Both the position numbers and the translations under genes were made by a program. From Nitrospira sp. MA-1 (lineage in GTDB: Bacteria; Nitrospirota; Nitrospiria; Nitrospirales; UBA8639): 64,000 bases of DNA. A model generated the notes under the pieces. That model was not told where the DNA came from and ran no database searches. It saw nothing but the letters and a program-made list of their open reading frames with translations. Below are positions 2,684-64,000 of the stretch, piece after piece (positions within the stretch are counted from its first letter, which is position 1; every line of letters starts with the position of its first letter). The stretch covers positions 1 through 64,000 of the forward strand of contig JAQJDB010000007.1 of assembly GCA_032139905.1 (NCBI GenBank), in the 5' to 3' direction.

Positions 2684-3910
2684 ATGATGCAATTGGCCAA
2701 ATTGAAAAGTGAATTAGACGATGCCCGGCTCTGCACGGATCGTCTCTTCTCCCTTGTGAGTGATGAAGCCATGTATGAGCGTCCAATCCCCGAGCGACAT
2801 CGTTTAATTTTTTACCTGGGCCATCTTGAGGCATTTGACTGGAATCAGATTGGTCGTTGGACATTGGGCATGCCGTCGTTTCATGAATCATTTGACCAGT
2901 TATTTGAAGCGGGAATTGATCCTTCCTTGGGAAATCTGCCCGCCGATCGACCATCGGATTGGCCGACAATAAATGAAGTGCACCGTTATAATGCACGTGC
3001 TCGTGAAGAAGTGGATCGTCTCTTGCCAACTGTTCCGGAATGTATAATCCATATGGCAGTGGAACATCGTCTGATGCATGCCGAGACGAATGCCTACTTA
3101 CTCCATCATTTGGATTTAAAGTACAAGCATGCGCCAGCGAATTCCTCCGGGGGCTTATCTTCTTCATTTTCAGAAGACATACCTAAAAATGAGATGATGG
3201 AAGTGCCAGAAGGCATGGCCACCCTCGGACGGGAGCCAGAAGAGGGGTTTGGCTGGGACAACGAATTCTTGCAACATGTCGTCCCTGTTCCTGCGTTTTT
3301 GATCAGCCGGCATAAAGTGACGAACCAACAATATCTGCGATTTGTTCAGGAAGGTGGCGAGCCGTCCGCATTTTGGGTCAAACGAGGGGATGCCTGGTAT
3401 GTGCGCACGATGTTCCAGGAAGTCCCATTACCGCCATTCTGGCCGGTGTATGTGACACATCGACAGGCGGAGGCTTACGCTAATTGGGCCGGCATGACCC
3501 TCCCGACCGAACCCCAATTTCATCGCGCCGCCTTTGGCACTCCGTCCGGTATTGAGCAATCCTTTCCCTGGGGTAATGCAGCGTCAATGTTTCAACATGG
3601 GAATGTTGATTTTCATGCTTGGGATCTGGCTCCTGTGAATGCCCATCCTCTTGGGGACAGTGCGTTTGGTTTGGCTCAGATGGTGGGAAATGGCTGGGAA
3701 TGGACATCGACCGTTTTCCATCCTTTTCATGGATTTTCACCCTTTCCCACGTATCCTGGTTATTCAGCCAGATTTTTTGATCAGGATCATTATGTGGTGA
3801 AAGGTGCCGGGCCTTTTACCTCCAGCCGACTCTTGCGCCGGTCGTTTCGAAATTGGTTTCGACAAAGTTACCCCTATGCGCATATCGGTTTCCGCTGTGT
3901 GCAGTCATAA
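2684..3910 (+). CDS. EgtB-like iron(II) sulfoxide synthase (DinB plus FGE-sulfatase domains)
   Basis: This 408-residue protein has the two-domain build of ergothioneine-type sulfoxide synthases. The N-terminal DinB-like helical bundle carries His47 (GHLEAFDW) and the iron-binding motif HRLMHAE at residues 128-134. From about residue 175 a formylglycine-generating-enzyme-like domain follows (SRHKVTNQQYLRF, WPVYVTHRQAEAYANW, QMVGNGWEW). EgtB joins a thiol to trimethylhistidine using O2. A methyltransferase EgtD is not adjacent, and SenA or OvoA relatives share the same build, so the exact substrate is open. GGAGAGG at 2671-2677 supports ATG 2684 or 2687. Confidence 0.8.
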   Translation: MMQLAKLKSELDDARLCTDRLFSLVSDEAMYERPIPERHRLIFYLGHLEAFDWNQIGRWTLGMPSFHESFDQLFEAGIDPSLGNLPADRPSDWPTINEVHRYNARAREEVDRLLPTVPECIIHMAVEHRLMHAETNAYLLHHLDLKYKHAPANSSGGLSSSFSEDIPKNEMMEVPEGMATLGREPEEGFGWDNEFLQHVVPVPAFLISRHKVTNQQYLRFVQEGGEPSAFWVKRGDAWYVRTMFQEVPLPPFWPVYVTHRQAEAYANWAGMTLPTEPQFHRAAFGTPSGIEQSFPWGNAASMFQHGNVDFHAWDLAPVNAHPLGDSAFGLAQMVGNGWEWTSTVFHPFHGFSPFPTYPGYSARFFDQDHYVVKGAGPFTSSRLLRRSFRNWFRQSYPYAHIGFRCVQS

Positions 3911-3965
3911 TGCTCATGGGTGACGCTGCTTCTTTTTCGTGTTGCATATTGGATGACACCTTTCA

Positions 3966-5522
3966 ATGCGAGTGATACTTAAAAGACGGGGGCATTGGGG
4001 GCTCCTCCTTTTTGCCTTGATTCTCTGGGGGAACCCAGCCTTTGCGACCGACCGGTTGGTGATTCTGCATTCGAGCGAGCATCACGGGGTTGCGCTTCCG
4101 CTTGAGCTAGCCGGAGAGACGGGAGTTGGAGGCCTGGCCAGGCGGGCCACAATTGTGGAAGAGGTTCGGCGGGAAGGCGTGCCGGTCTTGATGGTGGATT
4201 CGGGGGATATTCTTATTGGAACCGCTTTGTCTTCCTGGTTTCGCGGTGAACCGGATATACGAGCCATGAATCTGATCCGCTACGATGCGATGGTGGCTGG
4301 AAATCATGATTTTGATTATGGAATTGACCATCTTCGCACATTGGTTGAGTTAGCCGAATTCCCAATTTTATGCACGAACCTTCAGTCTAAGCGATCTGTC
4401 CTCCCTTGCCGGCGCTCAGTTGTCACCCGCTTGGGGAATGTGAGTGTTGGAATCGTCGGAATTGTGGGGAACAGTAATTTTCCTGATACCTTCAACCGGG
4501 ATGTCGCCAATACGTTATCATTGATGGATCCGATTGCCTCTCTTCAAACTGAAGCCCTGCGGTTACGGACAGAAGCCCATATTGACCTGGTCATTGCCCT
4601 CACACATCAAGATAGCAATGAAGATTTAAAAATTCTGGAGACCGTTGAGGGGGTGGATGTGCTCATCGGTGGACATACCGAAGGGTTTGACGGAATGTAT
4701 GCTCCTGGTTTGATGGAGCCGGTTGAATCCGTGACTCGTCCTCGATCGGTGTATGTGAAGACGCATCGGCAGGGCCGAACAGTCGGGCGATTAGATCTGA
4801 CGATTGAGGAAGGATCGGTGATCCAGGCGCGTTCACACAATATTCCAGTGACCGTGGAAGTTCCAGTCGAGCCGAATGTCCAACAACTTCTGAGCGAGTA
4901 TCGACAGCGGTTTGCCCGTCAAGCCACTCAGATATTGGGGGAGGCGTCTGTGCGGCTCCAGGGCGATCGGCCTGTTGTCCGGACCCAAGAAACCAATTTG
5001 GGAAATTTGTTGGCAGATCGTATGCGAAGGAAATTTGAGACGGATATCGCCTTAATAAATTCCGGACAAATTCGTCGAAGCCTGGAACCCGGTCCGGTAA
5101 CATTAGGCGATATGCTTTCGGTCCTGCCCTTTGACTCCGCCCTTGTGACCGTACATGTGACGGGAGCGATGCTTCGTCAGGTTTTAGAGCATAGTGTGAG
5201 TCAATGGCCGAATCATTCCGGTCGGTTCCTCCAGGTATCCGGTCTCCAGGTCACGTATCAAGGAAAGGCACCGGTTGGATCTCGTGTGAAGAGCATCATG
5301 GTTGGGGGTATGCCCTTAGATATGTCAAAAACCTATACTGTCGCGACGGACGCCTTTGTGGCTGAGGGCGGGGATGGCTATGACATGTTGACTCACCTCT
5401 CGGATCGAAGGGACCATCAAATCCCCTTGAGAGATCTGTTGTTGAAAGCCTTAGTTGATGGTCCGCTCTATGCGGAAGCAGATGATCGTATCGTATTCGT
5501 GAATAGCTTCCCGTCTCATTAA
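3966..5522 (+). CDS. Secreted bifunctional metallophosphatase / 5'-nucleotidase (UshA family)
   Basis: This 518-residue protein starts with a signal peptide (hydrophobic LLLFALILW, cleavage after NPAFA near residue 27). The metallophosphoesterase domain shows DSGDILIG, VAGNHDFDYG, ALTHQD and GGHTEG, and the C-terminal 5'-nucleotidase domain shows NSGQIRRSL and VLPFDSALVTV. Family members cleave phosphate from nucleotides or related phosphoesters in the periplasm. The first metal motif, usually TNDxHG, reads SSEHHG, so the Asp ligand is replaced by Glu. It sits 14 bases before an ECF transporter, which suggests that it frees the nucleoside or vitamin the transporter takes up (inference). Confidence 0.88.
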   Translation: MRVILKRRGHWGLLLFALILWGNPAFATDRLVILHSSEHHGVALPLELAGETGVGGLARRATIVEEVRREGVPVLMVDSGDILIGTALSSWFRGEPDIRAMNLIRYDAMVAGNHDFDYGIDHLRTLVELAEFPILCTNLQSKRSVLPCRRSVVTRLGNVSVGIVGIVGNSNFPDTFNRDVANTLSLMDPIASLQTEALRLRTEAHIDLVIALTHQDSNEDLKILETVEGVDVLIGGHTEGFDGMYAPGLMEPVESVTRPRSVYVKTHRQGRTVGRLDLTIEEGSVIQARSHNIPVTVEVPVEPNVQQLLSEYRQRFARQATQILGEASVRLQGDRPVVRTQETNLGNLLADRMRRKFETDIALINSGQIRRSLEPGPVTLGDMLSVLPFDSALVTVHVTGAMLRQVLEHSVSQWPNHSGRFLQVSGLQVTYQGKAPVGSRVKSIMVGGMPLDMSKTYTVATDAFVAEGGDGYDMLTHLSDRRDHQIPLRDLLLKALVDGPLYAEADDRIVFVNSFPSH

Positions 5523-57454: not shown

Positions 57455-58642
57455 ATGGAACCTTTTTACCGAATTCAACGACTCCCAGGATACGTCTTCT
57501 CTCAGGTTCAAGAGTTAAAACTCCAAGCCCGGAAGCGGGGAGAAGACATCATTGATTTAGGAATGGGCAATCCCGACCAGCCCACACCCCGTCATATCGT
57601 GGACAAATTGATTGAGACCGCGCGACTCGGGCGGAATCATCGCTATTCGGCCTCGCGGGGTATTACAAAATTGCGCCATGCCATCTGCGATTGGTATCAA
57701 CGAAATTACGAGGTCAGTCTTGATCCCGAGACGGAAGCGATTGTGACCCTGGGGGTGAAAGAAGGGTTGGCGCATTTGGCCCTGGCCATGGTGGGACCGG
57801 GTGACGTGGTCCTGGCACCAACCCCCACGTACCCGATTCATATGTACAGTGTGATCATTGCGGGTGGGGAAGTCCGCGGGGTTGAACTCGGGCCGGATTC
57901 TGATTTTTTCGAAAACCTGAAAAAAGCCTTTAAACAGACGCAACCGGCTCCCCGAGCCTTGATCCTCAGTTTCCCTCATAACCCAACCACTCGCGTTGTT
58001 GACCTGGAATTTTTCAAAAAGGTGGTGGAGTTTGCCCTGGAACACCAAATCTGGGTCATTCATGATTTGGCCTATGCCGATATCGTGTTCGATGGTTACA
58101 AAGCCCCCAGCCTTCTACAAATTCCGGAGGCCAAACAAATTGGCGTGGAATTTTACTCACTCTCGAAGAGTTATAACATGCCCGGTTGGCGGGTAGGGTT
58201 TTGTGTCGGGAATCGTGAAGTGATTGGTGCGTTGACCAAAATCAAAAGTTACCTGGATTATGGCATGTTCCAGCCCATTCAAATTGCCAGTATTATTGCC
58301 TTGAATGGTCCCCAGGATTGCGTGAAAGAAATTGTGGGACGATATGAGCGACGGCGAAATGCTCTGGTCCGTGGACTCAACCGCATTGGTTGGCAAATCG
58401 ACTATCCTCGCGCCACCATGTTTGCCTGGGCAAAAATTCCACAACCCTACCTCGGAATGGGATCGTTGGAGTTTTCCAAGCTCTTGTTGCGAGATGCCAA
58501 AGTTGCGGTTTCCCCGGGAATAGGATTCGGCGAAGGCGGCGATGACTATGTCCGCTTTGCATTAGTCGAAAATGAGCACCGGATTTTCCAGGCGGTTCGA
58601 GGAATCCGTCAGGCTTTAAAATTTGACGGAGATTCAGAATGA
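57455..58642 (+). CDS. Class I/II PLP aminotransferase (AlaC-like)
   Basis: This 395-residue fold-type I aminotransferase has [44 protein letters not shown] and the PLP Lys in [16 protein letters not shown]. It resembles AlaC/YfdZ alanine transaminases and DapL-type enzymes; the cluster (hom, thrC, lysC) suggests amino acid synthesis but not which substrate. It overlaps hom by 4 bases (ATGA). Confidence 0.9.
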
Positions 58643-59949
58643 AAAAAGCCATCCAGGTTGGATTAATCGGGTTTGGTACCGTAGGAACCGGGGTCGTGAA
58701 GATTCTTCAGGAGAATGCCGGTCTGATTGCAAAACGTGTCGGAGTTCCGGTTTCCCTGGTGCGGATTGCGGACTTAGATGTGACAACCGATCGGGGAGTC
58801 TCTGTGGCTCAAGGGGTATTGACGACGGATGTTCGGGGCATTCTGGATGATCCTGCGATTGATATTGTCCTGGAATTAATTGGCGGACATGAACCGGCCA
58901 AACGGTTTATTCTTCAGGCGCTTGAACGGAAAAAGTCTGTGGTGACGGCGAATAAAGCGTTGTTAGCCGACCATGGTGAAGAAATCTTTGAGGCGGCATT
59001 TAAGGCAGGCGTTGATCTCGGGTTTGAAGCGAGTGTCGGCGGGGGCATTCCCATCATTCGATCGCTCACCGAAGGGTTGGCTGCAAACCGGATCTTGTCG
59101 ATTACGGGGATCATGAATGGTACGTCAAATTATATTTTGACGAGGATGACCCATGAGCGCCGTGATTTCGACGAAATTTTACAGGAAGCGAAACGGGAAG
59201 GGTATGCCGAAGCGGATCCATCCCTGGATGTTGATGGGGTGGATGCCGCTCACAAACTGGCTATCATGGTGAACCTTGCGTATGGAACTCCCGTGCCCAT
59301 GCGGTCCATATTCACCGAGGGCATTTCCCGTATTTCGACGGTGGATATCGAGTTTGCCCGTGAACTCGGGTTTACCATTAAATTGCTGGGAATCGCCAAA
59401 CTGCAAGAGCATGCCATTGAGGCACGAGTCCATCCCGCCCTGGTGCCGGCCGGATCTCCCATAGCACAGGTCAATGGCGTCTATAATGCCATTCATTTGA
59501 TTGGTGACGCCGTGGGAGACGTTGTGCTCTACGGCAAAGGGGCCGGATCCCTTCCAACAGCCAGCGCCGTGGTAGGGGACATTATCGATCTTGCACGCAA
59601 TCGCTTAGCCGGGGTTGCCGGACGGGTTCCTGTGACCTCATTCCAATGGGAATCGCGTGTGCCCATCCCTATTAAGCCGATGGACGACATTGAAAGCCGG
59701 TATTATTTGCGGTGCATGGTCAAGGATCAACCCGGGGTCCTGTCGGCCATATCAGGGATTCTCGGGCAGCGTGGGATCAGCATTTCGTCCGTCCTCCAAA
59801 AAGGGCGAAAGGAAGGACAAACGGTGCCGTTGGTCATCTTGACGCATCGTTCCATAGAGCGTGCCGTTCAGTCGGCATTACAGGAAATTAATGCACTTTC
59901 CATGGTTTCTGAGGCGACGACGTTACTTCGTATGGAGGGGGTGGAATAA
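58639..59949 (+). CDS. hom: Homoserine dehydrogenase
   Basis: This 436-residue enzyme reduces aspartate semialdehyde to homoserine. The NAD(P) motif is [13 protein letters not shown]. Catalytic-region stretches are [40 protein letters not shown] and [16 protein letters not shown]-terminal ACT domain (from about residue 355, [19 protein letters not shown]) suggests feedback control by an amino acid, commonly threonine. Confidence 0.96.
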
Positions 59950-59990
59950 GAGATGGGGGCACGTTGTTTCGTAAAAAGGGACAAGCCATT

Positions 59991-61052
59991 ATGATCCCCT
60001 GGCGTGGCATTATAGAGGAGTACCGGAAATTTCTCCCGGTAGGAGATCAGACGCCGATTGTGTCTCTTCAGGAGGGGAATACGCCACTGATCCCAGCAAA
60101 ACGCTTAGCCGCGAAAGTGTGTCCGGGAATGAATTTGTATCTGAAGATTGAAGGGGCGAATCCAACCGGGTCCTTCAAGGATCGGGGGATGACCATGGCG
60201 GTTTCTAAAGCCGTGGAAAACAAAGCCAGGGGACTCATGTGCGCTTCGACGGGCAATACTTCCGCCTCGGCAGCGGCCTATGGGGCGAAAGCGGGTTTGC
60301 CGGTGTATGTCGTCATTCCGGCAGGGAATATTGCATTGGGTAAGCTGACCCAGGCTCTCATGCATGGTGCCCAGGTCATTCAGATTGATGGGAACTTCGA
60401 TCAGGCTTTAACGATTGTGAAGGATTTGTGTCAGGAAACGGCGATTGAGTTAGTCAATTCAATTAACCCGTTTCGTTTGGAAGGCCAAAAAACGGGGGCC
60501 ATGGAAATCTGTGACCAGTTGGGATATGCCCCGGTCATTCATGCCCTCCCTGTGGGAAATGCAGGGAATATTACTGCGTACTGGCGAGGGTATCGGGAGT
60601 ACCAGGAAGCCGGACAAACACAAGGGTTGCCTCGTATGTTCGGGTTTCAGGCGGAAGGAGCGGCTCCCATGGTCAGAGGCCATGTGGTGGAGTCACCGAA
60701 AACTATTGCCTCAGCCATTCGGATTGGAAATCCTGCCAGTTGGAATTTTGCCCTGAAAGCGTTAGAGGAATCACAGGGACATCTGGATATGGTGACGGAC
60801 GAAGAAATTATTCGGGCTTATCAAATGGTGGCGAGTGAAGAAGGGGTCTTTTGCGAGCCCGCTTCGGCTGCCTCTCTTGCAGGAATTGACAAAATGAATC
60901 GAGCCGGGTTGTTGCCAAAAGAGGGAGTCATTGTGTGTACCTTAACCGGACATGGGTTAAAGGACCCGGATACGGCCATCTCAGTCTCGTATCGACCGGT
61001 CACCGTTCCTGCCACTCATGAGGCGGTCAGAGCGCAATTGACAAATACGTAA
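59991..61052 (+). CDS. thrC: Threonine synthase
   Basis: This 353-residue PLP enzyme converts O-phosphohomoserine to threonine. PLP Lys63 lies in NPTGSFKDRGMTMAV; CASTGNTSASAAAYGAKAG and the glycine phosphate loop LPVGNAGNITAYW follow. ATG 59991 fits the family; the TTG at 59964 adds nine unlikely residues. It needs homoserine phosphate, yet no ordinary homoserine kinase gene is present. Confidence 0.95.
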   Translation: MIPWRGIIEEYRKFLPVGDQTPIVSLQEGNTPLIPAKRLAAKVCPGMNLYLKIEGANPTGSFKDRGMTMAVSKAVENKARGLMCASTGNTSASAAAYGAKAGLPVYVVIPAGNIALGKLTQALMHGAQVIQIDGNFDQALTIVKDLCQETAIELVNSINPFRLEGQKTGAMEICDQLGYAPVIHALPVGNAGNITAYWRGYREYQEAGQTQGLPRMFGFQAEGAAPMVRGHVVESPKTIASAIRIGNPASWNFALKALEESQGHLDMVTDEEIIRAYQMVASEEGVFCEPASAASLAGIDKMNRAGLLPKEGVIVCTLTGHGLKDPDTAISVSYRPVTVPATHEAVRAQLTNT

Positions 61053-61125: not shown

Positions 61126-62361
61126 GTGCGAAAAACGATCGTGATTCACGTCGATGGTTTGACGGGACAGTCGTATCAGGAATTAGGAGACCAAACCGTC
61201 TTGCAATCAGCTCGGACACCGCATCTGGATGAATTGGCTGGGCATGGTGAACTAGGACGTTTAGGGGTTCCCCGGGAAACCCGTCCATTTTGTGGGGAAA
61301 TGGCACTCCTTGCCGTCTTAGGATACGATCCACACAAATGGTATACGGGTCCTGGTGCTTTTGAGGCTGGAGGATTAGAGGTTGTGCTGGATGCCCATGA
61401 TGTGGCCTATCTGTGTCATTTGGTGACTCTCCGTGGTCAGGAGGGATGGGGGGATGGGAAAAAACTTGGTCCGCAGCTATTCATGGCGGACCCCTTTGGC
61501 GGAGGAATCGGGACTGAGGATGCTCGTGAACTCATTGATGCCGTCAATGAACAATTGATATCTGAAAGTATTCAATTTTACATGGGTAGCCATCATCGCC
61601 ATCTTATGGTCTGGGTTGGTGCGAGCGGAAAAGTGGCCTGTCGCAGCCCATACGAGGCCTTGGGAGAGTCGATCGAGGCGTATCTGCCTGCTGGCGACGG
61701 ATCTCAAATTTTACGTGAACTGATGGCGGCCTCCAGAGCGATTCTATGCCATCATCCTGTGAATCAGGAGCGTCTGAATGCCGGGTTGAAGCCGGCGAAT
61801 TGTTTATGGTTGTGGGGGTCAGGAAAACCAGTGGAGTTGCCTCCTTTAAAAGAACGGTGGCCAGTCCACGGTATGGTTATTTCCCCGGATGGGCCGTACG
61901 TAGGCGTTGGAATGGCCGCTGGTCTTGAGACGGTCAGGGTTGAACATGGGGGAGGAGGAGACCTCGCCTGGTTGCAGGCCTTGGCCAACAGAACTTTGAC
62001 TGCGTTGGAAAATCACGACCTGGTCTGTTTGCATATTCCCTTTTATGAGTGGGCTTTCAAGGATGGGCAGGCAGTGTCACCGTCACAATTAGGTGAATAT
62101 CTTGGGCAAGTGGACGAGCAGGTGATCGGAGCCATCCATCAGTCTGATGGAAGCAAGGACTCACATCGGATCGTCGTCCTGGTGACCCCAAGTCCGCATG
62201 GGCACAATGATGGAGAGGCTCCTGTATCGCCATATCTGGTGTTTGAAGGGTCGGAGGGGAAATCCGAAATTCATGCGGTCCCATTGAATGAACGGGAAGT
62301 GGCCAACCGTCCCCTCCGTGATGCCACCAAATTGTTTGAGCGGTTTCTGGGGACTCACTAA
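61126..62361 (+). CDS. ApgM-family protein with degenerate mutase site
   Basis: This 411-residue protein has the ApgM (cofactor-independent phosphoglycerate mutase) frame: [48 protein letters not shown] and [18 protein letters not shown]. Key residues differ from those I recall for the family. The nucleophile motif GSDVAN reads CGEMAL (Gly57 in place of Ser), PDEAGH reads FYEWAF, and the metal motif PDHPTP reads PSPHGHND. Mutase activity is therefore doubtful. It lies between thrC and lysC; related proteins are reported to act as homoserine kinase in other bacteria, which would complete the pathway here. Confidence 0.8.
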
Positions 62362-62366
62362 ATCCT

Positions 62367-63602
62367 ATGGCACGGTATATTCAAAAATTCGGCGGGACGT
62401 CGGTGGGGAGTCTGGAACGAATCCAAAACGTCGCCCGGCTTATTGAGCGGACCTACCGGGAGGGGCATCAACTGGTGGTCGTGTTGTCTGCGATGAGCGG
62501 GGAAACGGATCGGCTCATGAAGCTGGCCAAGACGTTGAGCATCGACCCGGATGACCGGGAACTCGATGTCTTGCTGTCCTCCGGAGAGCGTGTCACGATA
62601 GCGCTGATGGCGATGACCCTCAAAAGTCTTGGGATGAAGGCGCAATCCTTTACCGGACGTCAGGTGGGTATTGTCACCGATAGCATGCATACCAAGGCCC
62701 GGGTTTCCCGGGTTGATACCGACCGGGTGCTGGGAGCCTTGCGTGACGGGATTATTCCCATCGTGGCCGGGTTTCAAGGGATCAACGCCGCCTCCGATGT
62801 GACGACGTTAGGACGCGGGGGATCTGATTTGACAGCCGTGGTGTTGGCGGCGGCGCTCAAGGCCGATACCTGCTTTATTTATACCGATGTGGATGGGGTG
62901 TACACGGCCGATCCGAATATTGTGCCCGGCGCGAGGCGGTTGGATAAAATCTCCTATGAAGAAATGTTAGAGTTAGCGAGTCTGGGGGCTAAAGTCTTAC
63001 AGTCTCGTTCGGTAGAGTTAGCGGCTAAATATCAGGTGCCGGTGGAAGTGCGATCCAGTTTTCAAGACGGGCCTGGAACCTGCGTGGTAAAAGAGGATGT
63101 CGATATGGAACAAGTTTTAGTCTCGGGGGTCACGGGCGATCGGAATCAAGCCAAGGTCACGGTGGTCGGGGTCCCGGATCACCCTGGAATTGCGGCCACC
63201 CTGTTCTGCTCCATTGCCGAGGCCGCCATCAATGTGGATATGATTATTCAAAATGTGAGTCAGGATTCCCTGACGGATATTTCCTTTACCGTGCCCAGAG
63301 CTGATCTGACGCGGGGAATGAGTCTTGTTAGAGATATCGCCAAATCAGTGGAAGCCCGGACGGTTGAGGTGAACGAATCCATTGCCAAAGTTTCGTTAGT
63401 GGGAGTGGGGATGCGTTCGCATTCCGGCGTCGCAGCCAGAATGTTTCAGACCCTCTCACGTGAAGGCATTAATATCATGATGATCAGTACCTCGGAAATT
63501 AAAATCTCTTGTGTGGTGGAAGAAAAATATATGGAGTTAGCAGTTCGGGCCTTGCACCAGGAGTTTGAATTGGAAGTACCTCTGGAGCGCAGAAAAGCCT
63601 AG
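62367..63602 (+). CDS. lysC: Aspartate kinase
   Basis: This 411-residue kinase phosphorylates aspartate, the first step to lysine, threonine and methionine. It has the N-terminal [28 protein letters not shown], the [19 protein letters not shown] loop and [15 protein letters not shown]. Two ACT domains at the C-terminus (from about 265; [17 protein letters not shown] and [19 protein letters not shown]) give allosteric feedback. It starts 5 bases after the ApgM-like gene. Confidence 0.96.
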
Positions 63603-63643: not shown

Positions 63644-64000
63644 ATGAATTCTCAATTTCCCGTCATTGAAATCTACGATACGACCCTCCGGGATGGGGCT
63701 CAGGCCGAAGATGTCAGCTTTTCGGTGGAGGATAAGGTTCGTATCGCCCTTAAATTAGATGAGCTGGGGGTCCCGTTCATTGAAGGAGGGTGGCCGGGAG
63801 CCAACCCGAAGGACATTGAGTTTTTCCACGTCATGAAATCGACTCCATTGCAGCACGCCAAAATCGTGGCATTTGGTTCGACGCGAAAAGCCAAAAATAC
63901 GGCAAAGGCCGATCCGACGCTGGAAGCCCTTTTATCCGCTGAGACGGATATTGTGACCATCTTCGGGAAAAGTTGGACCCTGCATGTAACGGAGGCCTTG
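63644..64000 (+). CDS. cimA: (R)-citramalate synthase, 5' part (cut by window end)
   Basis: The open frame runs off the right edge after 119 codons. [20 protein letters not shown], the metal-binding start of the HMGL-like barrel, and [20 protein letters not shown] match citramalate synthase rather than isopropylmalate synthase. It condenses pyruvate and acetyl-CoA in the citramalate route to isoleucine. ATG 63626 is an alternative start. Confidence 0.88.

Follow-up and report, generated by a model that had tools for sequence, protein, structure and literature searches.

The ApgM-like protein encoded in the threonine gene cluster of Nitrospira sp. MA-1 is probably a pseudoenzyme derived from the TIGR02535 'proposed homoserine kinase' family, with a cap that would serve a regulatory role, and the O-phosphohomoserine of this organism would be made by an order-wide kinase that is not yet recognised. 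We put the probability of this reading at roughly 0.6.

The window (i.e. the whole 64,000-nucleotide stretch of DNA that was analysed) closes with a run of genes on the forward strand in the order aminotransferase-hom-thrC-ApgM-like gene-lysC-citramalate synthase. The first of the cluster encodes a PLP-dependent aminotransferase (aat, named from its sequence; positions 57,455–58,642) and is followed by hom for homoserine dehydrogenase (58,639–59,949; NCBIfam PRK06349, 551.6 bits with a cut-off of 205) and thrC for threonine synthase (59,964–61,052; TIGR00260, 313.7 bits with a cut-off of 167). The ApgM-like gene (61,126–62,361) has a GTG start and encodes 411 aa. Only 5 bases past its end lies the start of lysC for aspartate kinase (62,367–63,602; TIGR00656, 451.1 bits with a cut-off of 402), and the last gene of the cluster, which resembles citramalate synthase by sequence (cimA, from 63,614), is cut by the window end at 64,000. 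The same order of genes was found again across the order Nitrospirales, indicating that the ApgM-like frame is a real gene and not a chance ORF.

The ApgM-like protein scored above the gathering cut-off of PF10143 (PhosphMutase; 122 versus 21.5 bits) and below those of TIGR00306 (apgM; 244.9 versus 320 bits) and TIGR02535 (234.7 versus 446.3 bits); a third related NCBIfam model, PRK04200, was matched well below its cut-off. An AlphaFold2 model generated from an alignment of 32 relatives had a pLDDT of 88.7 and a pTM of 0.89, and the nearest PDB structures in a Foldseek search were the archaeal ApgM proteins 3kd8, 3idd and 2zkt (E about 1e-26). The protein consists of a conserved cap, inserted at residues 41–240 by approximate boundaries, and a degenerate core of the alkaline-phosphatase type.

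TIGR02535 was put forward by TIGRFAM curators as a replacement for ThrB (PMC7311316) and was named 'ThrB2' from genome context in another study (PMC9026213). The earlier note was thus right that related proteins elsewhere had been proposed as homoserine kinases, and the idea is already published for the intact family. One member, BT2402, is required by Bacteroides thetaiotaomicron to grow when threonine is not supplied, but an E. coli thrB mutant could not be rescued with it, which leaves the chemistry of the protein unproven (PMC7311316). The zinc sites of BT2402 are kept (PMC9765024). The literature search returned no paper tying a TIGR02535-type homoserine kinase to Nitrospira. The window protein shares with this family its fold, its length, the neighbourhood of thrC and lysC seen in the phylum and the cap signature (i.e. 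RH, HPVN..R and N..W.WG), including His159 and Trp230; threonine-pathway neighbours and absence of thrB are likewise found here. The signature spans residues 158–231 (61,597–61,818, forward strand), with R158, H159, W163, H210, N213, R216, N225, W228, W230 and G231 varying little or not at all among relatives, whether degenerate or intact.

Unlike the cap, the catalytic apparatus is almost entirely gone. The earlier note had suggested that the nucleophile Ser and several metal ligands appear replaced in this homologue, which was confirmed by aligning 60 relatives and PDB 2zkt. The codons for Gly57-Glu58 (61,294–61,299, forward strand, as counted from the ORF start) occupy the place of the nucleophile Ser and the following Asp, the core Lys is a Val, and replacements also affect the DEAGH Asp and His, both members of the Asp-His pair and the C-terminal His; in this alignment Asp10 is the only catalytic or metal-binding residue kept. 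All ten sequences of the window's genus exhibited the Ser to Gly and Asp to Glu changes and replacement of the other catalytic and metal residues: the core Lys by a hydrophobic residue or Arg, the DEAGH Asp mostly by Glu and the His mostly by Gln (the alignment being loose at this motif), the Asp-His pair by Thr, Pro or Ser, and the C-terminal His mostly by Gly. In contrast, the Ser, the following Asp, the Lys and every metal-ligand position (i.e. DEAGH Asp and His, Asp-His pair and C-terminal His included) were invariant in 30 of 30 intact TIGR02535 proteins of the phylum. Loss was graded across the Nitrospirales and had gone furthest in the window's family. In family f2, the Ser has become Gly or Thr, the Lys has become Arg, and Asn takes the place of the Asp in the Asp-His pair; in family f3, the last His residues are lost and the Ser is mostly retained, as are both DEAGH residues (Asp and His). 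These replacements suggest that the window protein would be unable to carry out the Ser- and metal-dependent phosphoryl transfer of the superfamily. Against a pseudoenzyme, loss of residues is not proof of loss of activity.

Known homoserine kinases were sought in the window's genome (99.98% complete) by searches targeted at each family. The earlier note had described a cluster with aspartate kinase, homoserine dehydrogenase and threonine synthase and no GHMP-type homoserine kinase, and had suggested a genome-wide search for thrB; the description held, with no protein above the TIGR00191 cut-off anywhere in this genome (best score 44.7 versus 168.25 bits). Its two GHMP proteins are an HddA-like sugar kinase, which gave that best score, and IspE, which came next. 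No thrB above cut-off was found in any of 101 Nitrospirales genomes (66 plus 35 searched). The gap at homoserine kinase is therefore genuine and wider than thought. ThrB would share at most the pathway step with the ApgM-like protein, and its GHMP fold is unrelated. Across 217 genomes of the phylum, an intact TIGR02535 protein was found in 102, thrB in 34 and both in only 2, a near-mutual exclusion (Fisher p 3e-8, uncorrected for kinship). In GapMind, ThrB ranked as one of the most frequent steps of bacterial amino-acid synthesis to be missing with no explanation, lacking in 29 of 148 organisms, and TIGR02535 was present in only 15 of those 29 (PMC7311316).

Other kinase families yielded no convincing substitute. 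For ThrB_alt of the APH family, the best match in the window's genome was an AmgK-like protein; a putatively AmgK-like protein likewise led the APH matches in most of the 16 genomes searched, the others being only weak. The AmgK-like kinase gene is followed by one for a MurU-like nucleotidyltransferase (L004; G000:C7, about 235,403–237,250), a pair that suggests cell-wall sugar recycling. A shikimate-kinase-like homoserine kinase, DvMF_0971 of Desulfovibrio vulgaris, was identified from fitness data and from its ability to complement an E. coli thrB mutant (PMC5764234); it resembles the TIGR02535 case as a ThrB replacement and differs in belonging to the SKI family. The only SKI proteins of the window's genome are aroK and one that is gluconokinase-like by its sequence, which leaves no spare enzyme of this type, and most genomes without the ApgM-like gene carry one SKI protein each. 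Genome G012, in which neither thrB nor the ApgM-like gene is present, has a second strong SKI-family protein (G012:C37:4996-5469; 105 bits), a candidate for the homoserine kinase of G012 only. In family f4, a gene that separates lysC from the citramalate synthase gene (L081 9,173–10,159; L082 9,477–10,448) resembles formylglycine-generating enzyme by sequence and was rejected as the kinase. No kinase was found among the downstream genes of lineages without the ApgM-like gene, which include HU, MerR, Fpg and DUF1295 genes. A ThrC with altered substrate that needs no kinase was also considered and found no support: the NS-NP-R-GQK stretch, which we take to be part of the phosphate-binding site, was conserved in all lineages compared and is the same in those without the ApgM-like gene. 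Separately, almost all of 30 genomes were observed to encode a further threonine-synthase-like protein with about 36% identity to ThrC, its gene often lying just upstream of thrC in lineages with intact TIGR02535 (e.g. L091 5,807–7,054 and L210 8,959–10,200).

The distribution of the ApgM-like gene bears directly on the proposal in the earlier note that its product fills the missing kinase step. The gene was absent from 19 of 78 Nitrospirales genomes, most of those compared being metagenome-assembled, and these absences fell into three lineages only (i.e. genus g2, genus g4 and family f4). In 7 of 7 gene-less genomes inspected, the aat-hom-thrC-lysC-cimA cluster was intact and the ApgM-like gene was simply missing. 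In G033, a 99% complete genome with no thrB above cut-off, the gene persists only as a pseudogene, disrupted by a frame shift and multiple stop codons and still flanked by intact copies of thrC and lysC (L231, about 3,308–4,503; G033:C10, about 275,807–277,002); sequencing error is an unlikely source of so many lesions. As the gene-less, thrB-less lineages keep hom, thrC and lysC, and G033 has only the pseudogene, phosphohomoserine must be formed by another route in at least some Nitrospirales, and by parsimony this route may operate in all of them. Degenerate copies in the threonine operon also coexist with a true, above-cut-off thrB in G179 (L090 5,423–6,595) and G222 (L089 8,376–9,599), both from the class of the window's genome, as is expected if an old kinase decays once another takes over; in G172 an intact copy likewise coexists with a true thrB. 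These observations, together with the loss of residues that the proposed kinase family keeps, including the zinc sites of BT2402, speak against the proposal. Gene loss does not strictly exclude kinase activity in the window protein, since the losing lineages could each have gained another kinase.

If the protein were nevertheless the homoserine kinase of the organism, it would have a rebuilt active site, perhaps centred on Arg158, His159, His210, Asn213 and Arg216 together with the lineage-specific Lys113, and transferring phosphate directly with no phosphoserine step. We consider this unlikely. The operon place, the genome without a known homoserine kinase, the strongly conserved cap with a Lys113 invariant in Nitrospirales copies and the proposals made for intact relatives all suit such an enzyme, but every residue of the family chemistry save Asp10 is lost, conservation is lowest in the catalytic half, three thrB-less lineages and G033 maintain the pathway without a working gene, and degenerate copies elsewhere in the class sit beside thrB. 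A new function gained through newly fixed residues received little support, as only Lys113 looks specific to the Nitrospirales, and G172, an intact relative from the class, already has most of the other residues conserved in the order (Asn141, Gln143, Glu147 and Gln150).

Cap and core have evolved very differently. Mean pairwise identity over residues 92–240 was 57% among the degenerate Nitrospirales proteins versus 63% among intact relatives, and over the catalytic C-terminal half (residues 241–411) it was 30% versus 66%. At thrC identities of 70–75%, the whole protein was 43% identical among Nitrospirales and 63% identical among intact relatives, indicating much faster divergence than in intact lineages at equal thrC distance. 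This fast evolution and the repeated losses would be expected of a functionless, decaying relic that is heading for the fate seen in G033 and genus g2, a reading that we regard as quite improbable because the gene remains under purifying selection (dN/dS 0.12–0.18 for within-genus pairs at dS 0.5–0.9), weaker than that on neighbouring genes (0.03–0.09). The frame is also open in nearly all carriers, the fold is confidently predicted, cap conservation is near that of intact relatives, and the gene with its place between thrC and lysC is kept in most of the order, even in genomes of 1.7–1.8 Mb (G202 and G206). The lasting adjacency to thrC and lysC and a cap conserved while the core drifts freely would also fit one half of a two-component enzyme, with the substrate-binding cap lent to a partner such as LysC or ThrC; this is something of a long shot, as no partner was identified and the gene-less lineages retain thrC and lysC products about 70% identical to those of the window.

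The ancestry of the protein was examined in a maximum-likelihood tree, in which the Nitrospirales proteins grouped, with weak support (86/44), with class relatives such as G172, and archaeal ApgM lay on a long branch of 1.45, the tree being unrooted and its deep forks uncertain. His159 and Trp230 of the cap are shared with TIGR02535-type proteins and absent from 2zkt; together with the thrC-X-lysC synteny, these residues point to a TIGR02535-type ancestry. An active ApgM-type phosphoglycerate mutase (TIGR00306; 2zkt, 3idd and 3kd8) misplaced in a threonine operon is hardly credible, as the overall fold and PF10143 domain are shared but the score is below the family cut-off, the mutase Ser and metal sites are lost, the archaeal proteins are distant in the tree and the cap carries residues of the TIGR02535 type.

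Under the pseudoenzyme reading, a TIGR02535 protein of the Nitrospirota would have lost its catalytic function while keeping its fold and the ligand-side cap. The window protein would then not be the homoserine kinase of Nitrospira sp. MA-1, or not the indispensable one, and ThrC would receive O-phosphohomoserine from a kinase common to the order. The cap would most likely bind a pathway metabolite (i.e. homoserine or phosphohomoserine) or a partner (i.e. ThrC or LysC), sensing or contact of this kind being favoured because selection maintains both the cap and the operon place; a regulatory role of this sort would be helpful and dispensable. Against this reading, the fact that gene and position are so strongly conserved in most Nitrospirales fits an important function, and the other kinase was not located by the targeted family searches or by inspection near the cluster. 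The more specific version, in which the order-wide kinase belongs to a new family and an older TIGR02535-type kinase has become a pseudoenzyme that senses metabolites and tunes the aspartate pathway, is tentative, a little short of an even bet.

For annotation, the consequence is that automatic pipelines would label the protein as either a phosphoglycerate mutase or a homoserine kinase; the residue pattern and the losses of the gene speak against either label. The lineages without a functional gene (g2, g4, f4 and G033) narrow the hunt for the kinase, which should sit in their small genomes and be present order-wide. Nitrospira and related bacteria rank among the major oxidisers of nitrite and ammonia and presumably need no external supply of amino acids, yet homoserine kinases of known type were missing from 101 genomes of their order. 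The Nitrospirales probably make threonine with a homoserine kinase outside the known families.
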